In this document: positions 8,923 to 37,134 of the stretch, piece after piece
Layout of the letters: each line of letters begins with the position of its first letter
How positions within the stretch are numbered: the stretch's first letter is position 1
IMG/VR virus record: IMGVR_UViG_3300042306_000889
Span: 1-38,477 of that record
Source of the DNA: a virus
Length of the DNA: 38,477 bases
Direction: 5' to 3' (one strand)
Notes under the pieces: generated by a model
Seen by the model: only the letters and a program-made list of their open reading frames with translations
Database searches by the model: none
What the model was told of the DNA's origin: nothing
Made by a program: the position numbers and the translations under genes

Positions 8923-8935
8923 CTTCATTTACAAA

Positions 8936-8957: not shown

Positions 8958-8977
8958 CAAAACGAAAGGCGGAACTC

Positions 8978-9322: not shown

Positions 9323-9335
9323 TATAGAATACCTG

Positions 9336-9377: not shown

Positions 9378-9379
9378 AT

Positions 9380-9440: not shown

Positions 9441-9467
9441 AGCAAATAGATCAAAATCTGTCAATAT

Positions 9468-9506
9468 CTGCATAGAATATAACAAAATGTTATATATATT
9501 ATGCAG
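9468..9506. repeat. Large inverted repeat
   Basis: CTGCATA (9468-9474) and ATATAAC (9477-9483) pair with GTTATAT (9489-9495) and TATGCAG (9500-9506) around AAAAT. It could form a cruciform or hairpin. Confidence 0.65.
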
Positions 9507-9527
9507 AATTAGACATAATTTTTTGGC

Positions 9528-9586
9528 ATAAATATGGGCCAAAATTGCTCTTTACGAACAAATTAAATAAATCGTGGAATTTTTTA
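9528..9586 (+). repeat. Intergenic repeat R7 (degenerate)
   Basis: TTACGAA at 9552-9558 and CGTGGAATTTT, placed so that TTACGA and the CCCTGG equivalent start 20 bp apart. ATGGGCCAAAATTGCTC upstream matches R6. Confidence 0.6.
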
Positions 9587-9730
9587 TATGAAACCTATTG
9601 ACAAATATAGGCCAATATGCTGCTATATGGGGCCATTGACATTACGAACATCAAATGGTAGCGTTCTATTACATGGGTATATTTAACTATATATAATGAT
9701 AGTATTTGGATCTAAATTGATAGTATGATT

Positions 9731-9756
9731 CTCCACTTTACTCCACAATACTCCAC
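9731..9756. repeat. Three CTCCAC repeats at 10-bp spacing
   Basis: CTCCAC starts at 9731, 9741 and 9751, so all copies face the same side of the helix. The arrangement is like iterons or a multi-copy protein site. Confidence 0.6.
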
Positions 9757-9817
9757 TATATAAGCCTCTAGGAGGCTCATAGAAGGGAGATTAAATGGAG
9801 GGGGATATAGTAGGTAG

Positions 9818-9858
9818 AGACCAAATGGCTCTAATTTCTAGAGCTTATTCCTTGGTCT
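9818..9858. terminator. Two-part hairpin at the convergent junction
   Basis: AGACCAA/TTGGTCT (9818-9824, 9852-9858) encloses GCTCTA/TAGAGC (9828-9833, 9839-9844). It lies just beyond the last minus-strand gene. No T tract in either direction. Confidence 0.5.
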
Positions 9859-9870
9859 ATATTGTGCTTA

Positions 9871-10044
9871 TTAGGAAGATAATCCTTTAAATGAATGACA
9901 TGCACATACGCCTACTACTTGATAGTTTCTATCTACTTCGGCTAGATCATTATATGTAGCTATAGCTTGGCAGTAATGGCATTTCTCTGTCTTTTGGTCT
10001 TCCGCCCATTCTACATATGCCTCAAAATTATCTAATATACCCAT
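9871..10044 (-). CDS. Small Cys-motif protein, 57 aa
   Basis: Reading the minus strand from ATG 10044 gives 57 codons before TAA, behind a good AAGGA ribosome site. CHYC (about residues 22-25) and CACH (47-50) could form a single zinc site. It starts 1 bp after the stop of the gene at 10046-10243, so it is the distal gene of that unit. Function unknown. Confidence 0.68.
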   Translation of the reverse strand: MGILDNFEAYVEWAEDQKTEKCHYCQAIATYNDLAEVDRNYQVVGVCACHSFKGLSS

Positions 10045-10045
10045 A

Positions 10046-10243
10046 TTACTTATTCCTTGGGATTAGGTTCTGTGGTCCTTCTGTGCCAAATAAGGACTTC
10101 TTAATAGGTACGCAATTAGGCACCTGTTTTCCACCTTTATCCTTCATGCCTACTTGCTTATAACCAGTCCAGCATGCCTTTTGGATATTGTCCCATTTGT
10201 CTTCATCTTCATTATCTGATAAATAATCCATTGTATTGTCCAT
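10046..10243 (-). CDS. Phage protein with C-terminal CWTGYKQVGMK motif
   Basis: 65 aa. I chose ATG 10243: the open frame upstream runs through a tRNA gene. An extended -10 (TGGTACAAT) ends 6 nt before this ATG, so it is probably leaderless. An acidic N-terminus (DYLSDNEDEDKWD) precedes KACWTGYKQVGMKDKGGKQV (residues 23-42) and PNCVP. I recall this CW.GY..VGMK..GGK.VPNCVP motif at the ends of structural or hypothetical proteins of many aquatic phages. Role unknown. Confidence 0.78.
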   Translation of the reverse strand: MDNTMDYLSDNEDEDKWDNIQKACWTGYKQVGMKDKGGKQVPNCVPIKKSLFGTEGPQNLIPRNK

Positions 10244-11235: not shown

Positions 11236-11823
11236 TTATTTTCTCTTTTCTGTGTGTATTGGGAAATTCAAGGTAGCTCTGGATGAGTTTGATGTGACCC
11301 TATGTACTGCTCCAGTGGGCACCAGAAGTAGGTCTCCTTCTTCTAATGTTATGGACTCTATGATATCATTTTTATCCTCAGTGTACATGTCCCATATGGT
11401 AACTCCCTTGATCTGCAAAACAACTGCATCCCATGGGTCTGAGTGTACTTCAGATACATATTCGGTTGCAAATAAATTGCAGAAGAATTGAACAGAAGTT
11501 CTTTCAACTGTAGATCCGAAAGCTGTATCAACTTCCTTTATGGAGTTATTTATCTCAGATATTGAGATTGGCATTTGTGATATAAATTGAACATAGCCTA
11601 TCGTTCTTAAAACTGAAGCAACATCGTTTTGATAAACATATTTGTCTTCCTTATAATTCTTATTGGAATCCACATATGTATCTGAGCCTGTATGCAAAGC
11701 TTTATTAATTAGATCTATCATGCTATCCCAAGAAGTATCTAATTGCTTAAATGATTTTATGTGGAGTACCTTGCTGGAAGCCCTGTAATCTTCCCACTTT
11801 TTAATATCTATTTCTTTATTCAT
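11236..11823 (-). CDS. JmjC/cupin-like Fe(II) dioxygenase
   Basis: 195 aa. The second half has the double-stranded beta-helix signature of JmjC or cupin-4 oxygenases: H127-S-D129 (HSDPWD), VLQIKGVTIWDMY, ITLEEGDLLLVPTGAVHRV with distal H174, then RATLNFPI. The H-x-D...H triad should bind Fe(II), with 2-oxoglutarate as co-substrate. Bacterial relatives hydroxylate ribosomal proteins or peptides; the target here is unknown. It overlaps the gene before it by 8 bp and leads into groES. Confidence 0.78.
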   Translation of the reverse strand: MNKEIDIKKWEDYRASSKVLHIKSFKQLDTSWDSMIDLINKALHTGSDTYVDSNKNYKEDKYVYQNDVASVLRTIGYVQFISQMPISISEINNSIKEVDTAFGSTVERTSVQFFCNLFATEYVSEVHSDPWDAVVLQIKGVTIWDMYTEDKNDIIESITLEEGDLLLVPTGAVHRVTSNSSRATLNFPIHTEKRK

Positions 11824-12336: not shown

Positions 12337-13164
12337 CTATCTGTATCTTAAACCAGTTATGCCTTCTTCTCTTTCTTTCTGTACATCTTCTGGGTTCTCC
12401 CACTTAAATCCATTTATTGGGGTCATCCACTCTTTCAAGCTTTTAGTTTCTTTTGCTCTTTTTATCTGAGCATTGTATTCATCTGATTTGTATGGATAAA
12501 ATGTTCCTGGATTTGATGCAGTCGGCAAAACAAAGTTTGAAAACGCAAACCTTACTCCACTTGATACTGGATCAACGCCATGAGCATAATCATTGTGTGC
12601 TCCATGTATTACAAGATCACCTCTGCCTGGTTTAATTCTAAGCTCATTACCTTCCTCGATTGGCTTACTTGCACCAACCCATTCACCATTGCTGTTTACA
12701 TGTGGATAAAATATTTCTCCACCTTCAAATTCACCAAAATATATAACTAGTCCGTAGTGTAATCTGCAGCAAGTATTCCATCTATCTTCTGAGATTAACT
12801 TAGCTGATTCTATGTCACATACCCCACACACTGGCCCGCAGTTCTCATGAGGCTCTCCTGGTGCGTCAGAGTGGATAAACATCCCCTCTTGATCGGGTCT
12901 TGATACAAGTAGATAGGACTGTGGGTGCATGACAAGTTCTGGATAGATTAGCTCACTAGCCATCTCCCAAACCTCTAGGAGATCATAGATTGTATCGGTG
13001 CTTCTAGAGTTGTACCATTCAAGATTATGATCTATACTTTTAGCACCCCCAGCACTATTCTGTACTATGTTCTCTATTTTTTCCAAAAGCTCACCGTTGA
13101 TAAAGTTTTTATAAATCCATATCTTGGGTGCAATTTGCTCTATATTAGGGTTATCTGTAAACAT
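12337..13164 (-). CDS. Prolyl-4-hydroxylase-like 2-oxoglutarate oxygenase
   Basis: 275 aa. Fe(II)/2OG oxygenase core: H98-S-D100 (FIHSDAPGE), IYFGEFEGGEIFYP (141-154), RGDLVIHGAHNDYAHGV with distal H195, and R205 in GVRFAFSNF for the 2OG carboxylate. This is the P4H-type arrangement. Between the HxD and the next strand lies a Cys-rich insert (C109, C113, C116, C132, C133) that could hold a metal. The start is leaderless (TGGTATAAT, 6 nt). It follows the P450 gene by 2 bp and probably acts with it. Substrate unknown. Confidence 0.82.
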   Translation of the reverse strand: MFTDNPNIEQIAPKIWIYKNFINGELLEKIENIVQNSAGGAKSIDHNLEWYNSRSTDTIYDLLEVWEMASELIYPELVMHPQSYLLVSRPDQEGMFIHSDAPGEPHENCGPVCGVCDIESAKLISEDRWNTCCRLHYGLVIYFGEFEGGEIFYPHVNSNGEWVGASKPIEEGNELRIKPGRGDLVIHGAHNDYAHGVDPVSSGVRFAFSNFVLPTASNPGTFYPYKSDEYNAQIKRAKETKSLKEWMTPINGFKWENPEDVQKEREEGITGLRYR

Positions 13165-16598: not shown

Positions 16599-16607
16599 AT
16601 TATATCA
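16599..16607 (-). promoter_or_regulatory. Extended -10 promoter, leaderless
   Basis: Minus-strand TGATATAAT, 6 nt before ATG 16592; it overlaps the end of the upstream gene. Confidence 0.6.
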
Positions 16608-17412
16608 TTTCTTCTAAAAAAGGTCTAGTCAATTTGACTATATCTTTAATTATATTGTGTATTTCTGAGCTTGGATGGCTAGATGGTAGCTGATGAATTA
16701 AAATATCAGACACTTCTTTTTCTTTTAACTTTAATATCTCTTTGTATATAAAATCACTATTCCCAGATATTGTTGTACCCTTATGGCTTTCTAAAACTTT
16801 ATTTAAATAAGTATTATTTTTACCTATTAAGTTATCATTTAATATTGCAACAGATACCATTTGATTTTTATTTTTTAATAATCCATTATTATACTGATCT
16901 AAATAATCACTTAACTGCATTATATTAGTTATCCCATACTCAATACAGGCTTTTTGAAAATCAATGCTGTGACCAGAAAGCATGAGGGGTGGTAATTTTT
17001 TTCTTAATGACAATACATTATATTTTTTAAGCCACTCTAGGGTGTATTGGTCTCTTTGTTCTATTGTCTGAATTCTATCTTCAATAAATACAACATCTCT
17101 TAAACTAGTTTCTTGAAACTTAATATTTCCAGGAATTACGTTGAAGGTCACACGCCCTGGTGCAATTTTTTCAAATGTTTCATATATAGTAGCCAGATAC
17201 TCTGGAGACAGAGAGTACGTTCTTACTGCAATTATATACTTAAATGTATGTTCTTTATTTATTGTATTTGCTACAGTAACTACAGCATTATCTAAAAATG
17301 AATCATACACCAAGAGCAACGATTTATATCCCACTTCATGTACAGTGTTTGAGATCTCTATTAATGCATCTCTAGAATTATCCTCAAACAAAGACATGTA
17401 GTGAAAATTCAT
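16600..17412 (-). CDS. Luciferase-like flavin monooxygenase
   Basis: 270 aa. Resembles the bacterial luciferase/SsuD superfamily (LLM): a TIM barrel using FMNH2 or F420. Supporting stretches are SLLLVYDSFLDNAVV, FKYIIAVRTYSLSPEYLATI and ETFEKIAPGRVTFNVIPGN (about residues 79-97; the family has sP..A......l..GR..lnvv.G). It is shorter than the usual 320-370 aa. Actinobacteria often use F420 in this family. Its start directly follows the stop of the histone-like gene. Substrate unknown; it may be part of the oxidative set. Confidence 0.75.
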   Translation of the reverse strand: MNFHYMSLFEDNSRDALIEISNTVHEVGYKSLLLVYDSFLDNAVVTVANTINKEHTFKYIIAVRTYSLSPEYLATIYETFEKIAPGRVTFNVIPGNIKFQETSLRDVVFIEDRIQTIEQRDQYTLEWLKKYNVLSLRKKLPPLMLSGHSIDFQKACIEYGITNIMQLSDYLDQYNNGLLKNKNQMVSVAILNDNLIGKNNTYLNKVLESHKGTTISGNSDFIYKEILKLKEKEVSDILIHQLPSSHPSSEIHNIIKDIVKLTRPFLEEMI

Positions 17413-22209: not shown

Positions 22210-22514
22210 GATGCTGGCTTCCCTTCTAGTTCTACTCGAACACCGTAAGACTCAAGTAGTTTTTTTGCTTTTGTTACATAATCAATTACTTTTTCTTTTT
22301 CTATTCCATCAAATTGAATAAAATTATCTTCATATAAACGTAATGCCAAGAATTCTGGGTATTGGACTACATCCATAAGTAGGAACATAGGCTTTGGCAA
22401 TTCCCTTAATCTTTTTTTCATTTCTGCATTATAAAACACTGGCTTGTTCGGCTCACCAGTCCATTGATTTATTCCATACTTAAAGTGATCTTTGTCTTTA
22501 TTTATAAATATCAT
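22206..22514 (-). CDS. Unknown protein, 102 aa
   Basis: ATG 22514 overlaps the WhiB stop (ATGA), which decides the start over an ATG five codons upstream. Mixed alpha/beta (MFLLMDVVQYPEFLALRLYEDN). No known motif. Probably co-translated with WhiB. Confidence 0.72.
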   Translation of the reverse strand: MIFINKDKDHFKYGINQWTGEPNKPVFYNAEMKKRLRELPKPMFLLMDVVQYPEFLALRLYEDNFIQFDGIEKEKVIDYVTKAKKLLESYGVRVELEGKPAS

Positions 22515-22807
22515 TTTATCTTCTTCCAAATTTCTTTTGTTTTGTGCTCATTCTTCATCTTATCAGCTTTTCCTAGAGTTAAGTATACTCCGCCCCAAAC
22601 ACCGTACTCAGTATTATCTATACCAGCCTGGTAGCACATCTTTCTTACTGGGCATGAAAGGCAGCATTGATCTACAGCTTTTGCAATCTGGATATCTGAC
22701 TCATATTTTTCAAAAAATAGTAGCGTGTCCATTCCTAAACATGCCGCTAAATCTTGCCACTCTATATCATTTTCATCGTATCTGTAGTTATCTAAAATAT
22801 TTGACAT
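22511..22807 (-). CDS. WhiB-family Fe-S transcription factor
   Basis: 98 aa from ATG 22807. The four cluster ligands are C23 (LAACLG), C49, C52 and C58 (CLSCPVRKMC), followed by the G(V/I)WGG turn at 69-73 (YGVWGGVYL). These define the actinobacterial WhiB family, which binds a [4Fe-4S] cluster and sigma-A region 4. The basic tail (KMKNEHKTKEIWKKIK) would touch DNA. Its presence points to an actinobacterial host. Another in-frame ATG at 22840 lies in the upstream gene. Confidence 0.9.
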   Translation of the reverse strand: MSNILDNYRYDENDIEWQDLAACLGMDTLLFFEKYESDIQIAKAVDQCCLSCPVRKMCYQAGIDNTEYGVWGGVYLTLGKADKMKNEHKTKEIWKKIK

Positions 22808-23021
22808 ACTTACCTGGCAGGGCCCATGTTCCTTTTTCATTTACTGAGAATTCTTTTTTGATTCCCCAGCTATTATTTCTATAAGCACCGCTGGTGCTAA
22901 AGAACCCGCCATCGTCTTTATTCCAAACAATCAAATCATAATTGTTCCAATAAATGTCTAAATTTTTACCATTAGCTTTTTTTCTTAAAAGCTCTATTCC
23001 ATTTTCATAAAGATGTAACAT
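22788..23021 (-). CDS. Unknown protein, 77 aa
   Basis: ATG 23021 follows ACAGGAAAA; its promoter is at 23055-23084. The sequence is rich in Tyr, Trp and Asn (YWNNYDLIVWNKDDGGFF) and predicted beta. No family. It overlaps the WhiB gene by 20 bp. Confidence 0.7.
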   Translation of the reverse strand: MLHLYENGIELLRKKANGKNLDIYWNNYDLIVWNKDDGGFFSTSGAYRNNSWGIKKEFSVNEKGTWALPGKYVKYFR

Positions 23022-24454: not shown

Positions 24455-24649
24455 TTACTCTTCTTTTCGAAGTGGTATTGTAAGTAACCAGATAGCTGTA
24501 GCAATTACTGTAGCTACCCCGACCACTTGCTGGGCTGACCCAGTAAGTGTCAGCCAGGCAATAAAGAACCCCAAAAGGGTAAATACCTGAGCTATGCTCT
24601 CTTTTATAACTTCCCAAATATATTTAAATATGGCTTTGATTATTTTCAT
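24455..24649 (-). CDS. Small membrane protein, 64 aa
   Basis: Two hydrophobic segments (VFTLLGFFIAWLTLTG and VVGVATVIATAIWLLTI) between an amphipathic N-terminus and a charged end (RKEE). The ATG is behind a perfect AGGAGG. It touches the end of the PA14 gene. A second holin candidate. Confidence 0.72.
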   Translation of the reverse strand: MKIIKAIFKYIWEVIKESIAQVFTLLGFFIAWLTLTGSAQQVVGVATVIATAIWLLTIPLRKEE

Positions 24650-26751
24650 TATATCCTCCTAGTCATTGCTGCTGCAATAATATTTGATGCGATAATTACT
24701 GGCACCACAACCTCCTGTGCCTTTTCTCTTTGATCGTCCGTCATGTCCTTACCCCATTCGGAAGGGTTCAGGACTTTAGAAAAATCTATGTCTAGCAATA
24801 CTCCAAGGGGGTCTGCTAGAAATTCCTCTGTCTGTACCTCTGTTACTGCGTCTGCTAATGTAAACGGCATTGGGGTATCTCCTGCCGCCTCTGATCTTTC
24901 TGAAAACTCAACAAATGCTGAAGCAAGCGCTGGGTTGTCCTTCATCTGCTCGGCAATCTGTGCAACCTCTGATGCCTTAATACCAAGATCTCCAGCAATT
25001 TCCACCTTTGCTTCTTGTGTCAAAGACTTAAGAGTTTGGCTAACTGCTGCTACTTGTTCAGGAGAAAGTGTAACTAACTTATTGTCCTTACTTGTTAGGT
25101 TAGCAATAACTCCAGACAAGTCTTCTGCAGTTCCAGTTCCCTTTTCAGGAATGAGTTCAGCCAACTCTTCATCTTCTATTTCAGGCTCATCTGTTGGTTC
25201 TGGTTCTGGGGTTGGTTCTGGTTGTGGTTCAGGAGTTGGCTCTTCTGTTGGGTCTACGACTGGCTCATCTGTTGGTTCTGGTTCTGGGGTAGGCTCATCA
25301 GTTGGTTCTGGCTTAGGATCTTCTGTAGGCCCTTCTGTAGGCTCTGGAGAAGGCTCTGGCGTAGGTTCTTCAGTAGGCTCTTCAGTTGGCTCTGTTGATG
25401 GTTCTGGAGAAGGTTCTGGGGTAGGTTCAACTGTAACCTCTGGTGTTGGTTCTGGCTGTGGCATATTCGCAAGGGCAGTAGCAATAGCAGCATTAATTCT
25501 CTGCTTCTCTTCAAAGTCCCATTGAGCAGCATACTCTTCTTCAGCAGCAGTAATAGCATCATTCATATCTTCAATTGCATTGTTGTAGTTTTCAATTGCT
25601 AAATCTTTTGCTGCTAATGTTAGAGCAGTGTTTAGTTCTGCAATTTCATATGTGGTTTCTGCTTGATCTTTTTGATCCTGCGCTTGCTCTAAATCATCTT
25701 GTAACTCATTCAGTGTTGCAACCTCTTGATTGTAAATAGATAACTTATCGTTATAAACTGCCAAGGCAGATGTTCTTGCTGCAAGGGCTTGGTTATAATC
25801 ATTTATCTGCTCTTGTGTTGCGCCTGGGCCAGAAGAAAATGTTCCAAGATTACAACTAAAGTCTACTCCCCAACCACCAGTGTAATCACAGCCTGCCCCA
25901 GTCCATCCTCCAGGAATAGCCCATCCAAGATGGTAAGACCCTGGACCTCCACCGTTGTACCACCAAATTTCTACATCTAATGTTTTATCTTCACTAACAT
26001 CATAGACTGGAGTATATGGGCTCCACCGTGCTCCCTGCTCTACCCATTGATTAGATGCAAGTTGTCCGTCAACAAACATTCTAAACCCATCGTCTGTATA
26101 TCCTGCAAAGAAGGTTGATGTCCAATGATCTGGTACTGTTATCTGTCCAGTAAATTTAACTATAAAGTTTTCATATCTATTACCACAAACTGGCAGGGAC
26201 ATATGGTTTGAGTTCCAGGTACCAGAACAAATAACTCCACTTGGTACTGCTACGTTGTTAAATGTTCTTGTTAAATGATAAACAGTATATGCTAACCCTT
26301 CTCCTCCAGCAGCCTGCATATTAGACTCTGTGGTTTGAAGATTAAGGTTGGCTATGGACAATGCTTCTTGAGCATCATCTTTGTGTGTTAAAGCTAAAGC
26401 AACTGTGGCTGTTTGTCCATCTACTGAGGACTGGGCTGAGGAAAGGTTTGATATTTTTGTATTGAGGTTAGATAATGACTCTGCTTCTGTTTCTACTGCT
26501 CCATCATATGCCTCTTCTGATGAAGTTTTATTATTTTTTGCATCTACAGCATCCTCGTATTTGTCTTCAGCTACTGATATTAATTCTTGTGTATACTCTT
26601 TGTCTGATAAATTATTTATATCTTCGTTTAATTTAGAAATTCTTTCTTGTGCTATAGTTAGCGGATCATCGCTGTAAGCAGGCGTCATGAATAGCCAGCC
26701 AAAGCCTAAAATTGCTGCTAATGATAATCTCCATGCTTTAGTCCTAGTCAA
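24649..26751 (-). CDS. Large secreted PA14-domain surface protein
   Basis: 700 aa. Signal peptide (WRLSLAAILGFGWLFMTPAYS), coiled coil (about 30-145), a PA14-like carbohydrate-binding domain (about 155-315; VPDHWTSTFFAGYTDDGFRM and FVDGQL), a second coiled coil (about 320-430), a Pro/Glu/Thr repeat linker (about 440-560), and a C-terminal hydrophobic stretch (VVVPVIIASNIIAAAM). It looks like an exported glycan-binding adhesin. Start is TTG 26751 behind TAGGAG. Palindrome AAACAATTTGTTT lies upstream. It resembles host surface proteins more than tail proteins; a receptor role is possible. Confidence 0.8.
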   Translation of the reverse strand: MTRTKAWRLSLAAILGFGWLFMTPAYSDDPLTIAQERISKLNEDINNLSDKEYTQELISVAEDKYEDAVDAKNNKTSSEEAYDGAVETEAESLSNLNTKISNLSSAQSSVDGQTATVALALTHKDDAQEALSIANLNLQTTESNMQAAGGEGLAYTVYHLTRTFNNVAVPSGVICSGTWNSNHMSLPVCGNRYENFIVKFTGQITVPDHWTSTFFAGYTDDGFRMFVDGQLASNQWVEQGARWSPYTPVYDVSEDKTLDVEIWWYNGGGPGSYHLGWAIPGGWTGAGCDYTGGWGVDFSCNLGTFSSGPGATQEQINDYNQALAARTSALAVYNDKLSIYNQEVATLNELQDDLEQAQDQKDQAETTYEIAELNTALTLAAKDLAIENYNNAIEDMNDAITAAEEEYAAQWDFEEKQRINAAIATALANMPQPEPTPEVTVEPTPEPSPEPSTEPTEEPTEEPTPEPSPEPTEGPTEDPKPEPTDEPTPEPEPTDEPVVDPTEEPTPEPQPEPTPEPEPTDEPEIEDEELAELIPEKGTGTAEDLSGVIANLTSKDNKLVTLSPEQVAAVSQTLKSLTQEAKVEIAGDLGIKASEVAQIAEQMKDNPALASAFVEFSERSEAAGDTPMPFTLADAVTEVQTEEFLADPLGVLLDIDFSKVLNPSEWGKDMTDDQREKAQEVVVPVIIASNIIAAAMTRRI

Positions 26752-27961: not shown

Positions 27962-28045
27962 TTAGTATGTATAGTCATATCCTTTTGAATGCTTTGGTTT
28001 TTTTGGCTTAAAAAGCTTATTTTTTATAAATATTAATATCTTCAT
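27962..28045 (-). CDS. Tiny basic protein, 27 aa
   Basis: ATG 28045 has a near-perfect ribosome site (AAAGGAG, 7 nt away), better than those of most large neighbours. The peptide (MKILIFIKNKLFKPKKPKHS...) has a hydrophobic start and basic middle and ends YDYTY. It overlaps the SGNH hydrolase end by 29 bp in another frame. I have seen similar KPKKPKxSKGYDYT ends in phages, function unknown. Confidence 0.6.
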   Translation of the reverse strand: MKILIFIKNKLFKPKKPKHSKGYDYTY

Positions 28046-29039
28046 TGCTTATCTCCTTTAAAAAGTTATTTGCTACGTTTTGCATAAAGCATGCGCCAGG
28101 GTGTCCATCTCTAGCGCTAGTCCAGTAGGGCAAAGATCTTTTGTTATATTTTTTAAATATTGCTTCACGATTGGCCCTATTTTTATTAAACTGAAAAGGG
28201 CTGACATACTTTTCCCACGGATCTTCTTTAAAAGTAACAAAATTTTTAAAATTTAATTCATTAAATAAAGCATTTCCATCAAACTCCCACGTTGACCACA
28301 TTAGTTCAATATTAAGTGACTGGCATAGATACTCTAGTGAGTTTATCAATGTTACTACAGTAAGAAGTTGCTCCATATGCTGGTAGCCTTTAATATACTT
28401 ATAGTCATTGGAATCTAAATCTTTATTGCTATGCATATCTGAATGAATAAAATCAGATCTTTCATCTGAATAAATAAATCCTCGTGAGATATTTGGGAAT
28501 AAAACAAAAATTTTGTTTGGAATACCCACTGACTCAATAAATGCCAATATATTTTTATATATTGCAAATATTCCTACTCCAGGTATGCCTATATTATATG
28601 AAGCAAAATCTTCTTCAGGGTTTTGAGAGACTAAACTACTCATCAGAACTTGTGGCCACACCAGATCTTCTGGCAAACCTTGCCCAAAAGTTATTGAGCA
28701 TCCAGCAAACAGAATATTATTTTTATTTTTATCAAATTCTAAAAAGTCTGTGCTTCTGAACCCATCTTGATTTAATTTATATAAAAAATCTGGACCCTCT
28801 ACTACATTTTTTTCTCCCGTTATATTTTGTTTGCATAAAGAATATCTTCCCTCAAACTCAACATCTTTAATGTCTTCAGGAATAACATTGCTATTAGCAT
28901 ATATTTCAGAGATTTTGTTTAAATTTTTATTATTTCCTAGCAGAAATGATCTGGCCTGCAAAGTCTTTCTAAAATTTAAAAACTTTTCTTGATCTGTGTG
29001 AAATAAATCAATAAATTCTTCTTGAGGGTTTTTAGGCAT
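28017..29039 (-). CDS. SGNH/GDSL-type hydrolase, paralog 1
   Basis: 340 aa. Block I is ILFAGCSITFGQG with nucleophile S115; the oxyanion block has YNIGIPGVG (148-156); block V is SARDGHPG with D311 and H313. Such enzymes remove acyl groups from sugars or lipids. It shares GCS, WSTW and ARDGxH with the gene at 32593-33435. It follows the glycosyltransferase gene with an 8-bp overlap, so a glycan substrate is plausible. Confidence 0.8.
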   Translation of the reverse strand: MPKNPQEEFIDLFHTDQEKFLNFRKTLQARSFLLGNNKNLNKISEIYANSNVIPEDIKDVEFEGRYSLCKQNITGEKNVVEGPDFLYKLNQDGFRSTDFLEFDKNKNNILFAGCSITFGQGLPEDLVWPQVLMSSLVSQNPEEDFASYNIGIPGVGIFAIYKNILAFIESVGIPNKIFVLFPNISRGFIYSDERSDFIHSDMHSNKDLDSNDYKYIKGYQHMEQLLTVVTLINSLEYLCQSLNIELMWSTWEFDGNALFNELNFKNFVTFKEDPWEKYVSPFQFNKNRANREAIFKKYNKRSLPYWTSARDGHPGACFMQNVANNFLKEISNEDINIYKK

Positions 29040-29985
29040 TTTTGTCTACAATATCATAGAAGTCTTTAAAATTAATACCGCATGCTATCTCAAACTCTTT
29101 TAATTTTTCTAATGAGGGTGCTCCCCAATACCCTATATATTCACCCAGCAAAATCTCTCTCATAATTCTTTTTCCGTCATTGTATCTTTTCATATAGAAT
29201 GGGAAAAGCCTAGGGTCATTATTCTTTAAGCTTCTCCAGTCGTCTTTGTTATCTTTTTCAAATGCGCCTTTTGTTGTTTGCTTGTTGTAATGAAAGCATA
29301 TGTCTGCATTAATAGAAAACATTCGATATCCTCTAGACCATGCACGTAGAGAATATATTGGCTCATCGCCACCCCAAACAATCCTAGGGTCATGTAAAAT
29401 TTCCGAATAAAGATCTGGCCTGCTAAATGTAAACTGAGCAGATATTAAATTATGCTCTATGTAATCTTCGCTAGAATAAGGAACTCCCTCTATTGTAGGG
29501 TATCCATCTTGAAATGAAGAAACTTTTGGCTCTTTGAATATTAACTTTTGCACAAGATTTGAGGTGCTGGAGTATACAATTTCGCCATCTTTATCGTAGT
29601 ACCATGCTGGTGCTCTTGAGCTTATGACTGGCTTATCTACCAATGATTCAAGTTTAGTAAATCTTTTTATTAATTCAGAATCCCAGCTTTTAACAAATAT
29701 CATATGAGAATCTAACTGTAAAACATAATCTGTGTCTGGCATAACTATAGACGAAGCAATAAGTCTAGCCAATCCAACCCCTTGAGTACCACTAAATTCC
29801 ATATTCATATAAAAAACATTTTTAAAATTTTCAAAGTCAGCTTTGGGGAAGTTATTTAGTCGTGAATCAAATATAACAAAAGAAAGGTTGTCTGGGCTAT
29901 CAGAATTTTCTATAGCACTCTGAACTGTTTGCTTTAGATCTTTTTCATTAGCACTTATTATGGCTACTAAAATTTTATTACTCAT
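29032..29985 (-). CDS. GlcNAc-type glycosyltransferase
   Basis: 317 aa. GT-A fold: AIISANEKDLKQTVQSAI at the N-terminus and the metal-binding LQLDSHMIFVKSWD (about 89-102), which matches the UDP-GlcNAc transferase family PF11397 (DSHmrF...WD). VWGGDEPIYSLRAWSRGYRMF near 203-223 is the acceptor/catalytic region. It would add a sugar to a protein or glycan. ATG 29985 lies 6 nt after TATAAT, probably leaderless, directly after the tRNA array. Confidence 0.82.
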   Translation of the reverse strand: MSNKILVAIISANEKDLKQTVQSAIENSDSPDNLSFVIFDSRLNNFPKADFENFKNVFYMNMEFSGTQGVGLARLIASSIVMPDTDYVLQLDSHMIFVKSWDSELIKRFTKLESLVDKPVISSRAPAWYYDKDGEIVYSSTSNLVQKLIFKEPKVSSFQDGYPTIEGVPYSSEDYIEHNLISAQFTFSRPDLYSEILHDPRIVWGGDEPIYSLRAWSRGYRMFSINADICFHYNKQTTKGAFEKDNKDDWRSLKNNDPRLFPFYMKRYNDGKRIMREILLGEYIGYWGAPSLEKLKEFEIACGINFKDFYDIVDKNA

Positions 29986-29997: not shown

Positions 29998-30009
29998 CCT
30001 TTCTTTTTG

Positions 30010-30082
30010 CTGGGGATGCAGGGCTCGAACCTGCGACCTAGAAATTAACAGTTTCCCGCTCTGCCAGCTGAGCTAATCCCCA
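30010..30082 (-). tRNA. tRNA-Asn (GUU)
   Basis: Acceptor TGGGGAT/ATCCCCA, anticodon loop CTGTTAA (GUU), T arm GCAGG/CCTGC, discriminator G. Last of the six-tRNA array. Confidence 0.93.
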
Positions 30083-30086
30083 CTAG

Positions 30087-30159
30087 TGTCCCCAGATGGG
30101 CTCGAACCATCGACCCGCAGATTAAAAGTCTGCTGCTCTACCAACTGAGCTATAGGAAC
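30087..30159 (-). tRNA. tRNA-Lys (UUU)
   Basis: Acceptor GTTCCTA/TGGGGAC with wobble pairs, anticodon stem GCAGA/TCTGC around CTTTTAA (UUU), T arm GATGG/CCATC. Confidence 0.93.
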
Positions 30160-30160
30160 G

Positions 30161-30233
30161 TACCCGTAGTTGGATTCGAACCAACGCTGTGTAAATTTTA
30201 AGTCTACTGCCTCTACCACTGGGCTATACGGGC
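30161..30233 (-). tRNA. tRNA with anticodon UAA (Leu-like, short variable loop)
   Basis: Acceptor GCCCGTA/TACGGGT, D stem GCC/GGC, anticodon stem GTAGA/TTTAC around CTTAAAA (UAA), T arm GTTGG/CCAAC. UAA reads the Leu codon UUA. The variable loop is only five bases (ACAGC), whereas bacterial tRNA-Leu has a long variable arm. Its charging is therefore uncertain. Confidence 0.8.
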
Positions 30234-30237
30234 AAAA

Positions 30238-30308
30238 CTTTGGGTGCAGGAATCGGACCTGCGTTTATCGCTTCGGAGGCGAGTGTCCGACCATTAGACG
30301 AACCCAAA
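30238..30308 (-). tRNA. tRNA-Arg (CCG)
   Basis: Acceptor TTTGGGT/ACCCAAA, anticodon stem CTCGC/GCGAT (one mismatch) around CTCCGAA (CCG), T arm GCAGG/CCTGC. It reads CGG. Confidence 0.88.
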
Positions 30309-30329
30309 TCTATTTTTATTTATTATACG

Positions 30330-30401
30330 CACCCCTGGCTGGAATCGAACCAGCGACCAACAGATTAGAAGTCTGTTGCTCTTCCGCTGAGCTACAGAGG
30401 T
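30330..30401 (-). tRNA. tRNA-Arg (UCU)
   Basis: Acceptor ACCTCTG/CAGGGGT, anticodon stem ACAGA/TCTGT around CTTCTAA (UCU), T arm GCTGG/CCAGC. It reads AGA. Confidence 0.93.
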
Positions 30402-30402
30402 G

Positions 30403-30476
30403 TGTGCCAGGTAGGACTTGAACCTACGATTACCGAATTATGAGTTCGGGGCTTTAACCAACTAAGCTACTGGCAC
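30403..30476 (-). tRNA. tRNA-Met (CAU)
   Basis: Acceptor GTGCCAG/CTGGCAC, anticodon stem CCGAA/TTCGG around CTCATAA (CAU), T arm GTAGG/CCTAC. The G1-C72 pair excludes an initiator tRNA. A lysidine-type Ile2 tRNA is possible, but the phage has its own tRNA-Ile(UAU). Confidence 0.88.
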
Positions 30477-30521: not shown

Positions 30522-31130
30522 CTATATATCAATTTTAAAATCTATACTTCTCTTGTACTCAATATAGTTTTCATAACAAATTTTTATAGGATTGTATTTA
30601 TACACGGCCAAGTCTATCTCTTTGCGAACAAAAGAGTATTCTCTAGGCAGTCTATACTTTAAATCTTTAATAGACCTCATTTTTTCTTTAACTTGTTCTG
30701 GACTGACTCTGTTTTCTTTAAAGCTAATGTCAAATTTTTTAGAAACTTTATTTAAAAATAAATCTGGTTCTTGTGTCAACAAATTAAAACCTACTGGAGT
30801 TACATAATCAAGGCTTTGTGATTTATTTAAAAATAAATTATATTGATTTGTGTGACGAAGCATTGAATTATAAATAGCAGCATCCAAATGCTTTAAAAAT
30901 ATTTTTTGCTCATCCTCGTTCATGTGAGTAAAGTTAACCTCAATTCCAGAAGCAATTGCTGCATATGGATTTCTTAATAAACATATATTTATACCATTAG
31001 GATCAAAACTATCTGGCTGGTGATCTACCCATCTAAGTACGATATTAAAATTTTCTCTCATTAGATATTGACAAAACATGTTACCAGAGCCTGGGGGTGA
31101 ATTTATAGTAATTGTTTTACGGTTATCCAT
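30522..31130 (-). CDS. Sulfotransferase-like protein
   Basis: 202 aa. The N-terminal TINSPPGSGNMFCQYL (residues 8-23) resembles the P-loop-like 5'-phosphosulfate loop of PAPS sulfotransferases. ICLLRNPYAAIASGIEVN (49-66) resembles their 3'-phosphate site (R...S). It is short for the family. It overlaps the end of the carbamoyltransferase gene by 8 bp, so the two probably act on the same molecule. A different P-loop function cannot be excluded. Confidence 0.6.
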   Translation of the reverse strand: MDNRKTITINSPPGSGNMFCQYLMRENFNIVLRWVDHQPDSFDPNGINICLLRNPYAAIASGIEVNFTHMNEDEQKIFLKHLDAAIYNSMLRHTNQYNLFLNKSQSLDYVTPVGFNLLTQEPDLFLNKVSKKFDISFKENRVSPEQVKEKMRSIKDLKYRLPREYSFVRKEIDLAVYKYNPIKICYENYIEYKRSIDFKIDI

Positions 31131-32547
31131 TTAATATACTAAAGTTATACTCTAGTTCCCATTTCCTTACATCATCTTGATCATTCAATAGGGGCTGCCC
31201 CTTAATATTTAAGCTGGTATTTAATAATACTGGCACTCCTGTTTTTAGATAGAACTTATTTAATACCCTATATAGCCCATAGTGCTGTTCCTTATTTACT
31301 GTCTGAACTCTAGAGGTGCCGTCCTCATGAACTACCGAAGGTATCTTGTCTGGCTGCAGGCATTTAACTGTGTACTGCATATAAGGACTCTTAAAGTCCA
31401 TGTCAAACCACTTATGGGCATGATCTTCAAGAACTACTGGTGCAAATGGCCTAAATAGCTCTCTCTGTTTAATTAAATTTACTTTATCTTTTATAGAAGG
31501 ATCTCTAGGGTCTGCAAGAATACTTCTGTTTCCTAGGGCCCTTGGGCCATATTCTGCTCTGCCTGATGCTACTGCCACTATTCCATCTTTAAGTATTCCA
31601 TCTACAATTTTCTGTATTGGGTATTCTCCACCCAGGTCGTGTCCTAAATAAGGAGTTTTCCAATCAATGTGCTTCCCATATAATGCTGCAGCAGCTCCAA
31701 GTGAACTTCCAGCATCCCCTGGGTTAGGCATAATCCAGACGTCATCGAATATACTCCATAGAATTGTATTTGCAGAAGAATTAAGAGCACAGCCTCCCAT
31801 AAACACTAAATTTTTTTTACCAGTTATTTTTTTTGCCATGTGCATAAACTCTGCTAATCTTATTTGATACACATGTTGAACAGCTGCTGCTATATCAAAC
31901 CTATCCTGATCATTCTCTATAGAGCCCCAGTCATGTATCCCCTTGTGAAAATTATATTTTTGGTTTATCTTTGAATCAAAATAGCTATTTACCTTTAGGT
32001 AATGTTTTTTCCAGTCTCCATAAGCCGCCATTCCCATCATTATATACTCTTCTTGATTTGGAACCAGCCCAATTAATTTAGTAAACGCTGAATAAAACAA
32101 ACCAAAACTTACTGGGTAGTTTTGTTTAAATCTTAATTTAATCTTTTCTCCTTCACCGACCCAAATTGTTGATGTGTTATATTCTCCAATTGCATCTAAG
32201 ACCACTATGGCTGCATCTGTAAACTTACTAGTGTAGTATCCAGCACAGGCATGAGAATAGTGGTGGCTAAAATATTTTACTGGCAAGTCCATAGGAAAGT
32301 TTGGCTTCCAATCCCCTGCTCCTCCCCTAAGAATCAATCTGGATTTTTTTAAATATGGCTTTTCATAGTAGGCGATATTAGTAGGTGTTGCATAATTTAA
32401 TGCATCTAGAATAATTTCTTCATTGTTATACCAATCATTTTTTTGCTTGCTATATCTTTCAGAGTGGGCAGCAAATAGTATTTCTCCATCCTTTATTAAA
32501 GAAACGGAAGCATCATGAGATGTTTCATTTATTCCTAGTATTACCAT
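31123..32547 (-). CDS. NodU/CmcH-family carbamoyltransferase
   Basis: 474 aa. All main motifs of the O-carbamoyltransferase family are present: ILGINETSHDASVSLI (3-18), HHYSHA (95-100), GGCALN (251-256), GPRALGNRSILADPR (334-348), LFRPFAPVVLE (364-374) and LLNTSLNIKGQP. Relatives transfer carbamoyl from carbamoyl phosphate to hydroxyls of antibiotics or Nod factors, and phage members are known. Some act on modified DNA bases, but no base-modifying gene is in this window. It is followed by the sulfotransferase-like gene. TACAAT lies 5 nt before ATG 32547. Confidence 0.93.
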   Translation of the reverse strand: MVILGINETSHDASVSLIKDGEILFAAHSERYSKQKNDWYNNEEIILDALNYATPTNIAYYEKPYLKKSRLILRGGAGDWKPNFPMDLPVKYFSHHYSHACAGYYTSKFTDAAIVVLDAIGEYNTSTIWVGEGEKIKLRFKQNYPVSFGLFYSAFTKLIGLVPNQEEYIMMGMAAYGDWKKHYLKVNSYFDSKINQKYNFHKGIHDWGSIENDQDRFDIAAAVQHVYQIRLAEFMHMAKKITGKKNLVFMGGCALNSSANTILWSIFDDVWIMPNPGDAGSSLGAAAALYGKHIDWKTPYLGHDLGGEYPIQKIVDGILKDGIVAVASGRAEYGPRALGNRSILADPRDPSIKDKVNLIKQRELFRPFAPVVLEDHAHKWFDMDFKSPYMQYTVKCLQPDKIPSVVHEDGTSRVQTVNKEQHYGLYRVLNKFYLKTGVPVLLNTSLNIKGQPLLNDQDDVRKWELEYNFSILNG

Positions 32548-32592
32548 TAGTAATTGTATCTTTTCTTTTTCATCATATTTTTTATTTTTCTT

Positions 32593-33435
32593 TTAACGAT
32601 CATTCTTTTTATTATTTTTATCATATAAAAACTCCTCATAAAATTTTTCTGCCCATATTTTGTGAAAGCCTCTGCCAAAATGATATCCGTCTCTTGCCCT
32701 TAAGTCCTTTATTCGTATGTCCCAGTAGTCTTTATCAAAATTACTTGTGTTTATGTATCCGTCTAGGTTAGCTACAGAATCTGTAATAGTCCGAGCTGTT
32801 GGAGCATGCCATGTTGACCATATTAACTTTATATTATTTATTTTACAGAACTGTATTAAATTTCTTAATAGAAAATAATTAAACAATATATTAACTTTTA
32901 TAACTTCTGGAGATTCATGATTCTTAAAAAAATGCTCAGTATCAATATCATTATCTATCTCACTATCGCTTACCTGATATTTTGGATACCACCCCATTGA
33001 TTCTGACCAGGTCACGTATCTGGTTTGATCTGGCAATTGCAAAAATATATAATCTGGACATCCATAATCATATGCATATTGAAATACATTCATTACTACA
33101 CCAGCTACAGTAAGTCCTGCTTTGCCTACGTTGTAGTAACCTGCAACATCGTTATTTTCTTTAATTTTATGGTAAAGCACATTGGCCCAGACGTCCTCTA
33201 GACTATTTGATGCCCCTTCTGTTTCAGAGCATCCTCCAAACAGGATATGCATCCCAGACTTTTTTTTCGTAAAGTCATCGCATCTAAATCCTTCATTATT
33301 ATACTTATACGTTATACGTTCATCAGGTTTAATGTTTAAATCCTTCTCATAAAACATTATCTCTTCTTCATAATTTGGTTTTGTACGTCCAAAGTATCTT
33401 TTTAGTAATGAAATATCAATCTCGTTTAAATTCAT
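32593..33435 (-). CDS. SGNH/GDSL-type hydrolase, paralog 2
   Basis: 280 aa. Block I ILFGGCSETEG with nucleophile S70, YYNVGKAGLTVAG as the oxyanion block (100-112), and RARDGYHFG with D249 and H252. Shares IWSTWH and ARDGxH with the gene at 28017-29039; the N-terminus of that gene is longer. No signal peptide. It lies between the oxidoreductase and carbamoyltransferase genes, so it may act on the same product. Confidence 0.78.
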   Translation of the reverse strand: MNLNEIDISLLKRYFGRTKPNYEEEIMFYEKDLNIKPDERITYKYNNEGFRCDDFTKKKSGMHILFGGCSETEGASNSLEDVWANVLYHKIKENNDVAGYYNVGKAGLTVAGVVMNVFQYAYDYGCPDYIFLQLPDQTRYVTWSESMGWYPKYQVSDSEIDNDIDTEHFFKNHESPEVIKVNILFNYFLLRNLIQFCKINNIKLIWSTWHAPTARTITDSVANLDGYINTSNFDKDYWDIRIKDLRARDGYHFGRGFHKIWAEKFYEEFLYDKNNKKNDR

Positions 33436-33441: not shown

Positions 33442-34392
33442 TTACCCATCTATATTGTTTTTTAAAATTAACTTACCAAAGGTTTCTCTATTTCTTATTT
33501 TTTCATGCATTATTTTTGCATCCTTTAACTCCATAGATTCTCCTATAATAATTTTTATCTTTCCTTCTTTAATTAAATTAAACAAATCATTTACTGCAAT
33601 ACTAAGCTTATTTGAGTTTTCAAACATTTTTGTTCCCCAAAAACCAGAAACTATCTTTGTGTCTTTTAATATATCTCTGATTTGAATAGATGGCAATCCT
33701 TCCCTAGATGAGGCGCCGTATGAACATATATGCCCTCCAGCTTCCAGCATGAAATAATAGTTCATAAAATGCTTTCCGCCATAAGACTCAAGTATAAATT
33801 TAGGCTTTTCTCCTATGCTGCCTAATATTTTTTTTATTTCAGACATGTCGTCTAGGCAAGCAAAGTCGGCCCCTAAAGACTTTATAAAATCTATTTTTTT
33901 ATCGCTTCCAGTAACACCAATTACTGTTGCTCCTACTATCTTGCATAGCTGTATCAGTATCATTCCCACAGCGCTGGATGCACCATTAATAAGAACTAGG
34001 TCTCCAGATTTAATATTACATATGTCTTTAACAATTCCATAAGCAGTTGTTCCTTGACAGACTACAGACAAAGCCTCTTCTTCTGTCACTCCGTCTGGAA
34101 CTTCAAATATTCTATCTTTATTCACAACAAGCTTTTCTGCATAAGCGCCACTGGCAGTATGACCGACATACAACTTACCATCAATCATAAAAGAAGCTTC
34201 TATACCAGGGACCACTGGAGGAAGTGTCTGAACTAGATAGCTATTTTCAGTTTGATAAGTGTCTGCATAATTAACACCTATCATCCTAGTATCTACAAGG
34301 ATCTGATCTTTTACTGGAACTGGATCACGATAGTCTATATATTCCATTACCTCTGGTCCACCAAAAGATTTAACAACTATTGCCTTCATCAT
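33442..34392 (-). CDS. Quinone oxidoreductase-like MDR enzyme
   Basis: 316 aa. Medium-chain dehydrogenase of the NADPH:quinone reductase type: MKAIVVKSFGGPEVM start, IGVNYADTY (38-46), and LVLINGASSAVGMILIQLC (131-149) as the nucleotide-binding loop. The zinc ligands of alcohol dehydrogenases are absent. It would reduce quinones or enones with NADPH. Its ATGATG overlaps the stop of the gene before it. Rare in phages. Confidence 0.88.
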   Translation of the reverse strand: MMKAIVVKSFGGPEVMEYIDYRDPVPVKDQILVDTRMIGVNYADTYQTENSYLVQTLPPVVPGIEASFMIDGKLYVGHTASGAYAEKLVVNKDRIFEVPDGVTEEEALSVVCQGTTAYGIVKDICNIKSGDLVLINGASSAVGMILIQLCKIVGATVIGVTGSDKKIDFIKSLGADFACLDDMSEIKKILGSIGEKPKFILESYGGKHFMNYYFMLEAGGHICSYGASSREGLPSIQIRDILKDTKIVSGFWGTKMFENSNKLSIAVNDLFNLIKEGKIKIIIGESMELKDAKIMHEKIRNRETFGKLILKNNIDG

Positions 34393-34799
34393 ACCCCTAA
34401 CTCTGATCTATACTCAATAAGTATATCAAATAATAAATCAGAATATGATTTATTAACTATAAGAAACTGGGTAGCATTAGGGCTACACAGCTGTATTAAC
34501 TCATCATAAGCACTGCTATCTACTTCAAAAAACCATCTTATGTGGTCAATAAATAAAATAAAAAGGTCATGACCTTCTTTTGTTTTTGCAGAAATTCCTA
34601 AATCAATTGCTATATCAAATTTATCTTGAAAGTCATATGCTTCTTTTAGCATGACAGTATATTCTTCTTTTGAATACCCCTTCATTTTTTCAGTTGCCTT
34701 TATTACCCAAGGATTGCTTGGAAAAGTTTTAGCTATGTTTTGAAATAAAAATCTTCTATTTTCAAAAACCTCTTCTTCAAAATTCAGATTCGTCATCAT
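34389..34799 (-). CDS. Unknown helical protein, 136 aa
   Basis: Begins MMTNLNFEEEVFENRRFLFQ and is all-helical, with a conserved-looking EGHDLFILFIDHIRWFFEVD stretch. No Cys motif. It overlaps its neighbours on both sides, so it is translated in the terminase-side operon. Function unknown. Confidence 0.72.
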   Translation of the reverse strand: MMTNLNFEEEVFENRRFLFQNIAKTFPSNPWVIKATEKMKGYSKEEYTVMLKEAYDFQDKFDIAIDLGISAKTKEGHDLFILFIDHIRWFFEVDSSAYDELIQLCSPNATQFLIVNKSYSDLLFDILIEYRSELGV

Positions 34800-35109: not shown

Positions 35110-35347
35110 TGGAGTTATCACTTGTCATGGATGTGTAAACAATTGTTTGAACATACTCTGAAAAATGTTTACTTAAATTACCTGGAGGCCTATGCCCTAG
35201 ATTTTCCCAAAGTTTTTTGTACTCCAAAACATTGTAGTATGTTGTTGGGCAAAGTGTGATGCCATTAAAATCTTTTAACAATATAGGAAGAGGAACATGC
35301 TTGCCGCAGCATTTGCACTCTTTAGCTTTTTCTTGATATATACTCAT
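35102..35347 (-). CDS. Zinc-binding protein next to terminase, 81 aa
   Basis: CKCC (about residues 11-14) and C33 with H17 suggest a zinc site; the second half reads NVLEYKKLWENLGHRPPGNL and KHFSEYVQ. Lies directly after the large terminase and overlaps it (ATGA). It could be an HNH-like packaging helper, but the HNH residues are not all visible. Confidence 0.74.
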   Translation of the reverse strand: MSIYQEKAKECKCCGKHVPLPILLKDFNGITLCPTTYYNVLEYKKLWENLGHRPPGNLSKHFSEYVQTIVYTSMTSDNSNE

Positions 35348-37134
35348 AATATTTCCATTCCACTTAATGCGTCAGAAAGGTCCCTAGGCATTGCTGAAGG
35401 AGCCTTTATTAAATTAGGACTTTCCTTTACTAAACTTTCTCTATACTGTTTTTTTACTGAAGAGTAATCATGAACTTCTATGTCTCCAAATGCTGCTCTT
35501 GTTAAACTAATTGCATTATATATAGATCCACAAACAGCGTCTGCTAAGTCTTTTGATCCTTTTCTAGGGTGATCAACTTTATCACGCATAATTCTTAACT
35601 CAAGTAGTTCATCTACTAGCAATGGTATATGTGGACCATTCAGTCTTTCTTCTAAAACCACCATAGCCATATCGTCATAATGCTTCTTTGCTACGGATAA
35701 AGTTTCTGTGCTTATCCCATACTGTTTTAGTTGCTGCATCATGTCATGAGAATTCCATCTATCAAATGTGCATATTCTAATATTAAATCCTCTTGACCTT
35801 AATGATAGTATATAATCTCTAACTTCTCCAAAGTCCACCGACTTATCTGATGTTGGAGTCCAGTACATTACGGCATCAACCTTTACAATAGGAGCTGGTT
35901 GCGAATATGTGTCTGTAACCTTTACGCTCACCCATCTATCAATGTGCGCCATAGAGACTGCACAATGGTCATGTTTTTGTGCTAAGTCTACGTGTATAAA
36001 ATAATCTTTATCCTCTTCTGGCAAAAACCATTCTTCAAATCTTCCAAATTTATCTACCGCTATTGAAAGATCATTAAATGCCATCTCAACCTTTTCACGA
36101 GATTTAAAAAATGCATCTATAGCTTCTGGAGGCATGCAAGCAAATCTTCCTAGAGCATCTGTTACGTCTCTATAAAATGCAATCTTAAAATCTTCAATAC
36201 TTCTGGTTGGATTAACTTCCCATGTGGGTCTGCGTATTGCATACACTCTAGGATATTTGTATGAAACAATTTGATCTTCATCCCAGAAGATGTCGAACTC
36301 ATTACCAACTGTGTTCTCTGGTAAATCTGGATCTAATTTAAATCTATGTGATCTTGATATAATTTCTTTTTCAGATATAATCTCATCGTATCTTTGCTGT
36401 ATATAATCGTTTTTAAAACGCGGGAATGATAAAAGAATTACTTTACCGTAATCTGGAAAACGAGAATCTACTGAGGCCCTATACATGTCATAAATTCCAC
36501 TTGCAGTTTTTGCTTGATCGTGGCCACTTGTGCTATCTAAAGCAAATCCAGAAATTTCATCAAGCACTGCAACAAGAACGTTATATCCTTCAAATGCTTC
36601 TCTTTCTGAGTGACCAGAGTATACAGTTACGTTCTTATCAAACTTGATTTCTGAAGCTTTTTCAAAATATTTACCTATAAACCAAGGAGAGTGTGTGACT
36701 CTATTCTTAAAGCCCTTAAAGAAAACGTTGTTGGCCTGCTGGGCGTTAATAGCAATGTTAATAATATCTATAGAATCTCCTGGAGGTTTGCCATAGTATG
36801 AAGCTGGATCCTTTAAGCATAGCAATAGATATACAATATATGCAACAGAGATAGTTGAGCAATAATCTTTACCGCTACCTTTGCCTAGTTGGGCAACAAC
36901 CTCATTGCATGTTTGCCTATATCTAAGCATGCCTTCTTTTTCACCAAACAGCTTTATCAGTGTTGACTCTTTATATATCTGAGAAGATCTTTCAATCAGA
37001 GTATACTGATACTCTGATAATTCTGGCAGCCCTAGATAGTTTTTGTCTGTTACAAATGTTCTAAGGTCAACGGGCCTTTCATCAAACTCTTCCCCGTCCA
37101 GGATGTCGATGAAATCATTAAAATCAAACTCCAC
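35344..37134 (-). CDS. terL: Terminase large subunit
   Basis: 596 aa. The DNA-packaging ATPase and nuclease. Walker A is LGKGSGKD (residues 83-90), Walker B is VLVAVLDE with D192 and E193. The RNase H-like nuclease has D382 (HVDLAQKHDH), D457 (CTFDRWNS) and D528/D531 (KGSKDLADAV). It overlaps the small subunit gene by 11 bp. It cuts and pumps DNA into the prohead. The sequence is closest in style to large actinophage terminases. Confidence 0.94.
   Translation of the reverse strand: MEFDFNDFIDILDGEEFDERPVDLRTFVTDKNYLGLPELSEYQYTLIERSSQIYKESTLIKLFGEKEGMLRYRQTCNEVVAQLGKGSGKDYCSTISVAYIVYLLLCLKDPASYYGKPPGDSIDIINIAINAQQANNVFFKGFKNRVTHSPWFIGKYFEKASEIKFDKNVTVYSGHSEREAFEGYNVLVAVLDEISGFALDSTSGHDQAKTASGIYDMYRASVDSRFPDYGKVILLSFPRFKNDYIQQRYDEIISEKEIISRSHRFKLDPDLPENTVGNEFDIFWDEDQIVSYKYPRVYAIRRPTWEVNPTRSIEDFKIAFYRDVTDALGRFACMPPEAIDAFFKSREKVEMAFNDLSIAVDKFGRFEEWFLPEEDKDYFIHVDLAQKHDHCAVSMAHIDRWVSVKVTDTYSQPAPIVKVDAVMYWTPTSDKSVDFGEVRDYILSLRSRGFNIRICTFDRWNSHDMMQQLKQYGISTETLSVAKKHYDDMAMVVLEERLNGPHIPLLVDELLELRIMRDKVDHPRKGSKDLADAVCGSIYNAISLTRAAFGDIEVHDYSSVKKQYRESLVKESPNLIKAPSAMPRDLSDALSGMEIL

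Follow-up and report, generated by a model that had tools for sequence, protein, structure and literature searches.

What does a phage gain by encoding a carbamoyltransferase, and which of the surrounding genes act together with this enzyme? These questions are raised by a locus in a linear IMG/VR virus record of 38,477 bases (37% G+C), hereinafter the window, for which a preliminary description had proposed that a carbamoyltransferase, a sulfotransferase-like protein, two SGNH proteins, a quinone reductase and a glycosyltransferase form a tailoring set for a glycan or a modified base. A 64.7-kb record (G001) is almost identical to the window, and relatives with sizes of up to ~119 kb were read along with it. 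The window encodes a WhiB-like protein (22511-22840, identified by eye), and because WhiB counts as an actinophage indicator (PMC10202952), the host of this phage group is probably a freshwater actinobacterium. Isolates of Planktophila phages exist (PMC10202952).

Several other genes of the window, all on the minus strand, merit mention in their own right: a full-length cytochrome P450 (13167-14492; Pfam p450, E 5e-58), with a second P450 in the relative G009 (80555-81739); a relative of luciferase-like monooxygenases that scores below the cut-off (16600-17412; E 2e-5; a similar ORF in G009 at 61618-63045); a 2OG-Fe(II)-oxygenase-like protein (12337-13164; weak PHROG match) and a JmjC_2-domain protein (11236-11823); and a 700-aa protein with a long PEPTEP-like repeat (24649-26751; DNA repeats at 25172-25465). 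Many 2OG oxygenases are also encoded by the relatives of the window.

Genomic context of the carbamoyltransferase

The locus starts with the gene for the large terminase (35344-37134, minus strand; matches to phrog_17415 and phrog_9 in PHROG), which heads a run of genes of the same orientation. Downstream, past orf81, orf114 and a TipAS-like helical ORF (family c60; 34389-34799; Pfam TipAS E 8e-4, below the cut-off), follow the genes for a quinone reductase-like protein of the MDR family, QOR (33442-34392; Pfam ADH_zinc_N, 65 bits), an SGNH-fold protein with a GCS...DxxH pattern, SGNH1 (32593-33435), the O-carbamoyltransferase, CARB (31123-32547; 474 aa), and a sulfotransferase-like protein, SULF (30522-31130; 202 aa). 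QOR is separated from SGNH1 by 6 nt and SGNH1 from CARB by 45 nt, whereas CARB overlaps SULF by 8 nt; because neighboring genes abut or overlap all the way from the terminase to SULF, the run is suggestive of a single transcription unit, one that is longer than the block originally described. As seen from SULF, there follows an array of six minus-strand tRNA genes (Asn, Lys, Leu, Arg, Arg, Met; 30009-30476; ARAGORN), beyond which lie, again on the minus strand, a GlcNAc-type glycosyltransferase of the PF11397 family, GT (29032-29985; Pfam GlcNAc E 1.3e-24), and SGNH2 (28017-29039), a second member of the SGNH1 family (29% identity). This arrangement, and the location of the block outside the tail module, are as originally described; the gene identities also stand, with the sole reservation that the sulfotransferase-like label is weakly supported (see below).

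The carbamoyltransferase is an accessory gene

The CARB protein contains both domains of the family (Pfam Carbam_trans_N, 123 bits against a cut-off of 24; Carbam_trans_C, 179 bits against 27) and matches the Nol-like carbamoyltransferases of PHROG (phrog_1601, E 7e-105). When aligned to novobiocin carbamoyltransferase and GdmN, it retains the HHxxH, GPRALG, FRPFAP, H-x-D-G-(T/S)-x-R-x-Q and LLNTS-x-N motifs, and in the family alignment (A7) H95, H96, H99, D118, D278, GPRALG and RPF are invariant. Judging by these signatures, which bear out the initial assignment, CARB is a carbamoyltransferase of the NodU/TobZ type with an intact active site.

Relatives of CARB are found in 595 viral stretches of IMG/VR (the best 80 of the 595 at 79-100% identity), with a mean column identity of 84% across 19 diverse contigs; the closest named virus record is 42% identical. 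The gene is accessory: it is visible in 14 of the 48 terminase relatives with >2.5 kb of downstream sequence, CARB+ and CARB- phages are interleaved even where the terminases are 93-96% identical, and several gains or losses are observed on the trees. The divergence of CARB is uncorrelated with that of RecA, the terminase or the capsid region (r between -0.05 and 0.09), which implies exchange of the gene between lineages. In one relative (G023 50986-52404, locus L146), the CARB frame is interrupted by a single TAG, which could represent a broken gene, a sequencing error or read-through.

The SGNH-fold protein

Neither SGNH1 nor SGNH2 has a match in Pfam when searched as a single sequence. The family profile, however, matched a GDSL esterase in the PDB (E 2e-5), and the AlphaFold2 model of SGNH1 (pLDDT 79) retrieved TesA, PAF-AH and CgnD in Foldseek, with a probability of 1.00 to TesA and others. 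In the alignment of 41 SGNH sequences (A3), G68, S70, G107, R139, D249 and H252 are invariant; for block III, which normally supplies the oxyanion-hole Asn, no GxND was seen in these 41 sequences, and P135...R139 are conserved instead. The profile, the predicted fold and the invariant Ser70, Asp249 and His252 jointly confirm the SGNH identity of the window proteins. An N-terminal hydrophobic segment is absent in all 41 phage SGNHs, whereas most of the CARB-adjacent cellular SGNHs that were checked possess one. SGNH and CARB differ sharply in conservation, the mean identity being 31% for the SGNHs vs 79% for CARB, which argues against inheritance as one block.

Strict co-occurrence of CARB and SGNH

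Clustering of all ORF families from 22 records (13 CARB+ and 9 CARB-) yielded a single family that matches CARB fully, namely SGNH (13/13 vs 0/9), the next-best families being present in 8 CARB+ and 0 CARB- records and in 10 and 2, respectively. Among 32 large related records, 22 of which were collected through RecA or TerL irrespective of whether CARB was present, the 16 that carry CARB are exactly the 16 that carry the SGNH family, with 0/16 among those without CARB (Fisher 3e-9, kinship ignored). At the terminase-downstream locus of 34 relatives, 11 have both genes, 23 have neither and none has only one. The TerL tree requires seven changes of CARB, four of them forced by well-supported branches, and SGNH changes in step each time, although these 4-7 independent changes do not suffice for significance in a sign test once kinship is corrected for. 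As further caveats, genes flanking CARB served to train the SGNH profile, which nevertheless also detects SGNHs distant from CARB, and some of the records compared might be incomplete. The unit that is held together across the relatives is CARB plus SGNH.

Optional cargo and the tRNA scaffold

The other genes of the block do not track CARB in the relatives, and we therefore reject the idea that the entire block forms a single operon-like set. QOR is present in 2/13 CARB+ and 0/9 CARB- records and travels with the c60 ORF, which it follows even in the absence of CARB (L134); the GT family (GT_c47) is found in 7/13 vs 1/9 records, being missing in 6/13 of those with CARB (PF11397 domains, in 7/16 CARB+ records); and the SULF family is found in 4/13 vs 0/9. 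GT, QOR and the SULF of the window are thus optional cargo. The tailoring set of the preliminary description, which named lack of co-occurrence in relatives among the evidence that would speak against it, accordingly contracts to CARB and SGNH: such lack is what we find, completely or almost completely, for QOR, GT and SULF, and the opposite holds, strongly, for CARB and SGNH.

As for SULF itself, the protein has no match in Pfam, and its homologues fall short of the curated cut-offs of Sulfotransfer_1 and Sulfotransfer_3 (17.3 and 15.3 bits against 22 and 27; E 0.0033 and 0.025); a search of the PDB with the SULF profile gave no match, and the single-sequence AlphaFold2 model is uninformative (pLDDT 38). 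The motifs INSPxGSGNxFCQ and LRNPYxxxASG, which resemble the PAPS-binding 5'-PSB and 3'-PB motifs, are retained in four homologues, so that a sulfotransferase-like identity is weakly supported. Sulfation in general may be a frequent, though non-strict, companion of CARB, given that a second sulfotransferase-like family (c36) is present in 10/13 CARB+ vs 2/9 CARB- records and an APS-kinase-like protein, whose second domain weakly resembles nucleotidyltransferases, in 11/13 vs 4/9. Proteins in which an APS-kinase-like domain precedes a weak cytidylyltransferase-like one are common in the phage group (e.g., G001 45630-46388 and L074 8835-9596).

The tRNA array, Met-Arg-(Leu)-Lys-Asn, is a scaffold in which different relatives carry differing cargo between the tRNA genes (window 30009-30476; L110, L130, L131, L141), as is apparent from the comparison of the empty slot of L110 with L130. 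Short conserved blocks around the cassettes, considered as separate elements, proved to be the tRNA genes themselves. In relatives, the island also contains oxidative stress genes, encoding KatG-like catalase-peroxidase, AhpC/AhpD-like and Dps/ferritin-like proteins (L130 14068-16131; L126 3223-5286; L148; L131), or alternative cargo such as tryptophan halogenase (E 1e-103) and IMP dehydrogenase/GMP reductase (L102 7620-9143; L126 5618-6670). Nucleotide-sugar genes have a patchy distribution.

Cyanophage and cellular relatives

The two nearest relatives outside the group, among those of the phage collection, carry an SGNH as well: AG-345-D19 (CARB 42% identical, SGNH 1.3 kb away) and C48C1 (35% identical, SGNH 54 kb away). 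The pairing is not, however, a rule for all phage carbamoyltransferases: among six further cyanophage records with CARB, the SGNH profile found nothing in five and gave a marginal partial match in the sixth, S-SSM7, and it matched none of seven CARB- cyanophages.

A scan of bacteria with peptides specific for the phage clade gave no match, and 80 cellular CARB loci were obtained with a broad alignment. In the fetched flanks of 17 of the 80, an SGNH is detected (E up to 0.01), and 11 of the 16 matches outside fusion frames are no more than 1.5 kb away from CARB (p 9e-5). In a Verrucomicrobia MAG (L421), two tandem genes (3530-6871 and 6867-10187) encode fusions of ~1,110 aa each, with SGNH first and CARB second; the CARB part is confirmed by Pfam, and the SGNH part is indicated by a match to the A3 profile (2e-10) and by a GDSN...DGHY pattern seen in the sequence. 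The fusions are located downstream of NeuB- and NeuC-like genes, and in L386 and L426 nucleotide-sugar genes adjoin the SGNH-CARB pair (neighbors named by eye in all three loci). Cellular SGNH-CARB pairs are often found within surface-glycan loci. A contig binned as gammaproteobacterial (L383; Gammaproteobacteria MED685), which may be a phage contig, encodes a CARB relative (45%) next to GCS-type SGNH-like ORFs (one profile match, E 0.003) and an APS-kinase-like ORF.

Proposed function and alternative explanations

Adjacency in most loci, and the many other cargo genes that come and go in the CARB island, would be compatible with mere linkage, CARB and SGNH being held by one mobile cargo block. 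However, SGNH is located 9-45 kb from CARB in G008 and G009, and in L130 tRNAs and KatG lie between the two (a largely collinear relative, L110, lacks all three), so that simple linkage is no sufficient explanation; considering also the bacterial fusion and the disparity in sequence identity, we regard it as very unlikely. Because SGNH always accompanies CARB in the phage group and the two are fused in a bacterium, they very likely work together.

Enzymes of the TobZ/GdmN/NodU family convert carbamoyl phosphate and ATP into carbamoyl-adenylate and transfer the carbamoyl to a hydroxyl, and SGNH proteins act on carbohydrates by taking off or transferring O-acyl groups. With gene identity, strict co-occurrence, repeated joint gain and loss and a natural bacterial fusion established, we propose, with slightly better than even confidence, that CARB and SGNH comprise a two-enzyme module decorating one glycan-type acceptor, probably a cytoplasmic one. 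CARB, whose active site is intact, would form carbamoyl-adenylate from carbamoyl phosphate and ATP and then place the carbamoyl on a sugar hydroxyl, and the Ser-Asp-His triad would enable SGNH to take off, or to transfer, an O-acyl group of the glycan that CARB modifies. A glycan-type substrate is the best reading in view of the cellular relatives in sugar loci, and the lack of membrane anchors in the phage SGNHs makes a cytoplasmic acceptor probable. The acceptor could be a virion-protein glycan, or a nucleotide- or lipid-linked glycan precursor, and the benefit an altered virion surface or the exclusion of other phages. Counting against a glycan module are the non-glycan cargo of the island (KatG, AhpC/D, IMPDH), the patchiness of nucleotide-sugar genes, the gaps in GT_c47 and the carbamoyltransferases of cyanophages, which mostly lack the SGNH.

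Modification of a host envelope glycan at the precursor stage, excluding other phages, would account for the position of cellular SGNH-CARB pairs in surface-glycan loci and for the fast turnover of the module between close relatives, which resembles that of serotype-converting genes; yet the phage SGNHs, unlike most of the CARB-adjacent cellular ones checked, have neither an export signal nor a membrane anchor, and no integrase was noticed among the ORFs read, so that we consider a host target in place of a virion glycan unlikely. It is improbable that the pair serves a pathway to a small molecule or peptide. A precedent would be crocagin biosynthesis, in which a hydrolase of SGNH fold with a Ser/Asp-x-x-His triad, CgnD, and the carbamoyltransferase CgnI are accompanied by a 2OG dioxygenase (PMC10070186). 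CgnD (8a2n) does have the best query-normalised TM-score (0.52) among the Foldseek matches of SGNH1, and genes for P450, luciferase-like, 2OG and halogenase proteins are present in the phages, but the rmsd is 10-11 A, the sequence profile of SGNH missed CgnD, and the cellular pairs belong to sugar loci. Phage base-modification systems employ glycosyltransferases and group transferases, and a modified base had been among the substrates suggested for this gene set. The search for base-hydroxylating genes that was recommended along with this suggestion turned up no member of the Thymidylat_synt/hydroxymethylase family in 12 records and no Tet_JBP match over the cut-off in 16 (weak sub-cut-off matches in 5/16 could be explained by other 2OG oxygenases), which, along with the cellular homologues in surface-glycan loci, makes decoration of a hydroxylated DNA base very unlikely indeed and leaves a glycan as the best reading among the substrates proposed earlier.

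Two further candidates were rejected. Anti-phage defence received no match in PADLOC for eight proteins. Attachment of GlcNAc to hydroxyproline of collagen-like tail fibres, derived from PF11397, the 2OG oxygenases and a collagen repeat, fails because collagen repeats occur in G009 and G004 but not in G001, and PF11397 in only part of the CARB+ records.

Relationship to known systems

The enzyme families involved are ordinary, and the literature that we searched contains no account of the SGNH-CARB pair, its strictness, its natural fusion or the mismatch of evolutionary rates. A common unexplained phage gene, the 'Nol-like carbamoyltransferase', can now be tested as part of a two-protein system that makes a precise genetic prediction, namely that within the phage clade CARB should never occur without SGNH, and the natural SGNH-CARB fusion is a protein ready for biochemistry. 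Should the proposed glycan module be real, abundant freshwater phages could alter a sugar coat by means of a carbamoyltransferase that is conserved and a partner that diverges fast, and the principle by which SGNH proteins assist glycan transferases would extend to carbamoyl groups.

Like the NodU/TobZ/GdmN enzymes (PF02543 plus PF16861), CARB has both domains, HHxxH and GPRALG...FRPFAP, with near full-length coverage, but it is shorter (474 aa vs 576-702 in the PDB chains matched) and is linked to an SGNH protein. The cyanophage carbamoyltransferases share its PHROG at ~30% identity, and in S-SSM7, S-CAM3 and S-SSM5 they have genes for tail fibres, a 2OG oxygenase or heptose as neighbors; they differ from CARB in mostly lacking the SGNH partner. 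With the SGNH/GDSL hydrolases TesA, PAF-acetylhydrolase and CgnD, the phage SGNHs share the fold, the Ser and Asp-x-x-His, and are set apart by GCS in place of GDS in nearly all sequences, the invariant Arg139, the absence of a recognizable canonical GxND and, for most, of a Pfam match.

A parallel is provided by the MBOAT-SGNH and AT3-SGNH pairs such as PatA/PatB and OafB: according to two reports (PMC7448272, PMC12148441), SGNH proteins pair with membrane acyltransferases in surface-glycan acylation, so that there, as proposed for CARB-SGNH, a transferase of activated groups is paired or fused with an SGNH for glycan decoration. The phage partner differs in being a soluble carbamoyltransferase rather than a membrane acyltransferase, and the phage SGNH in lacking an export signal. 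In a bolder version of the proposal, which we rate as a long shot, CARB would supply the carbamoyl and the SGNH serine would transfer it, or pick the site, on diverse glycans, with the fast-diverging SGNH setting acceptor specificity; such a soluble carbamoyl-SGNH transfer system would be, in the cytoplasm, what the AT3/MBOAT-SGNH acyltransferases are in the membrane.
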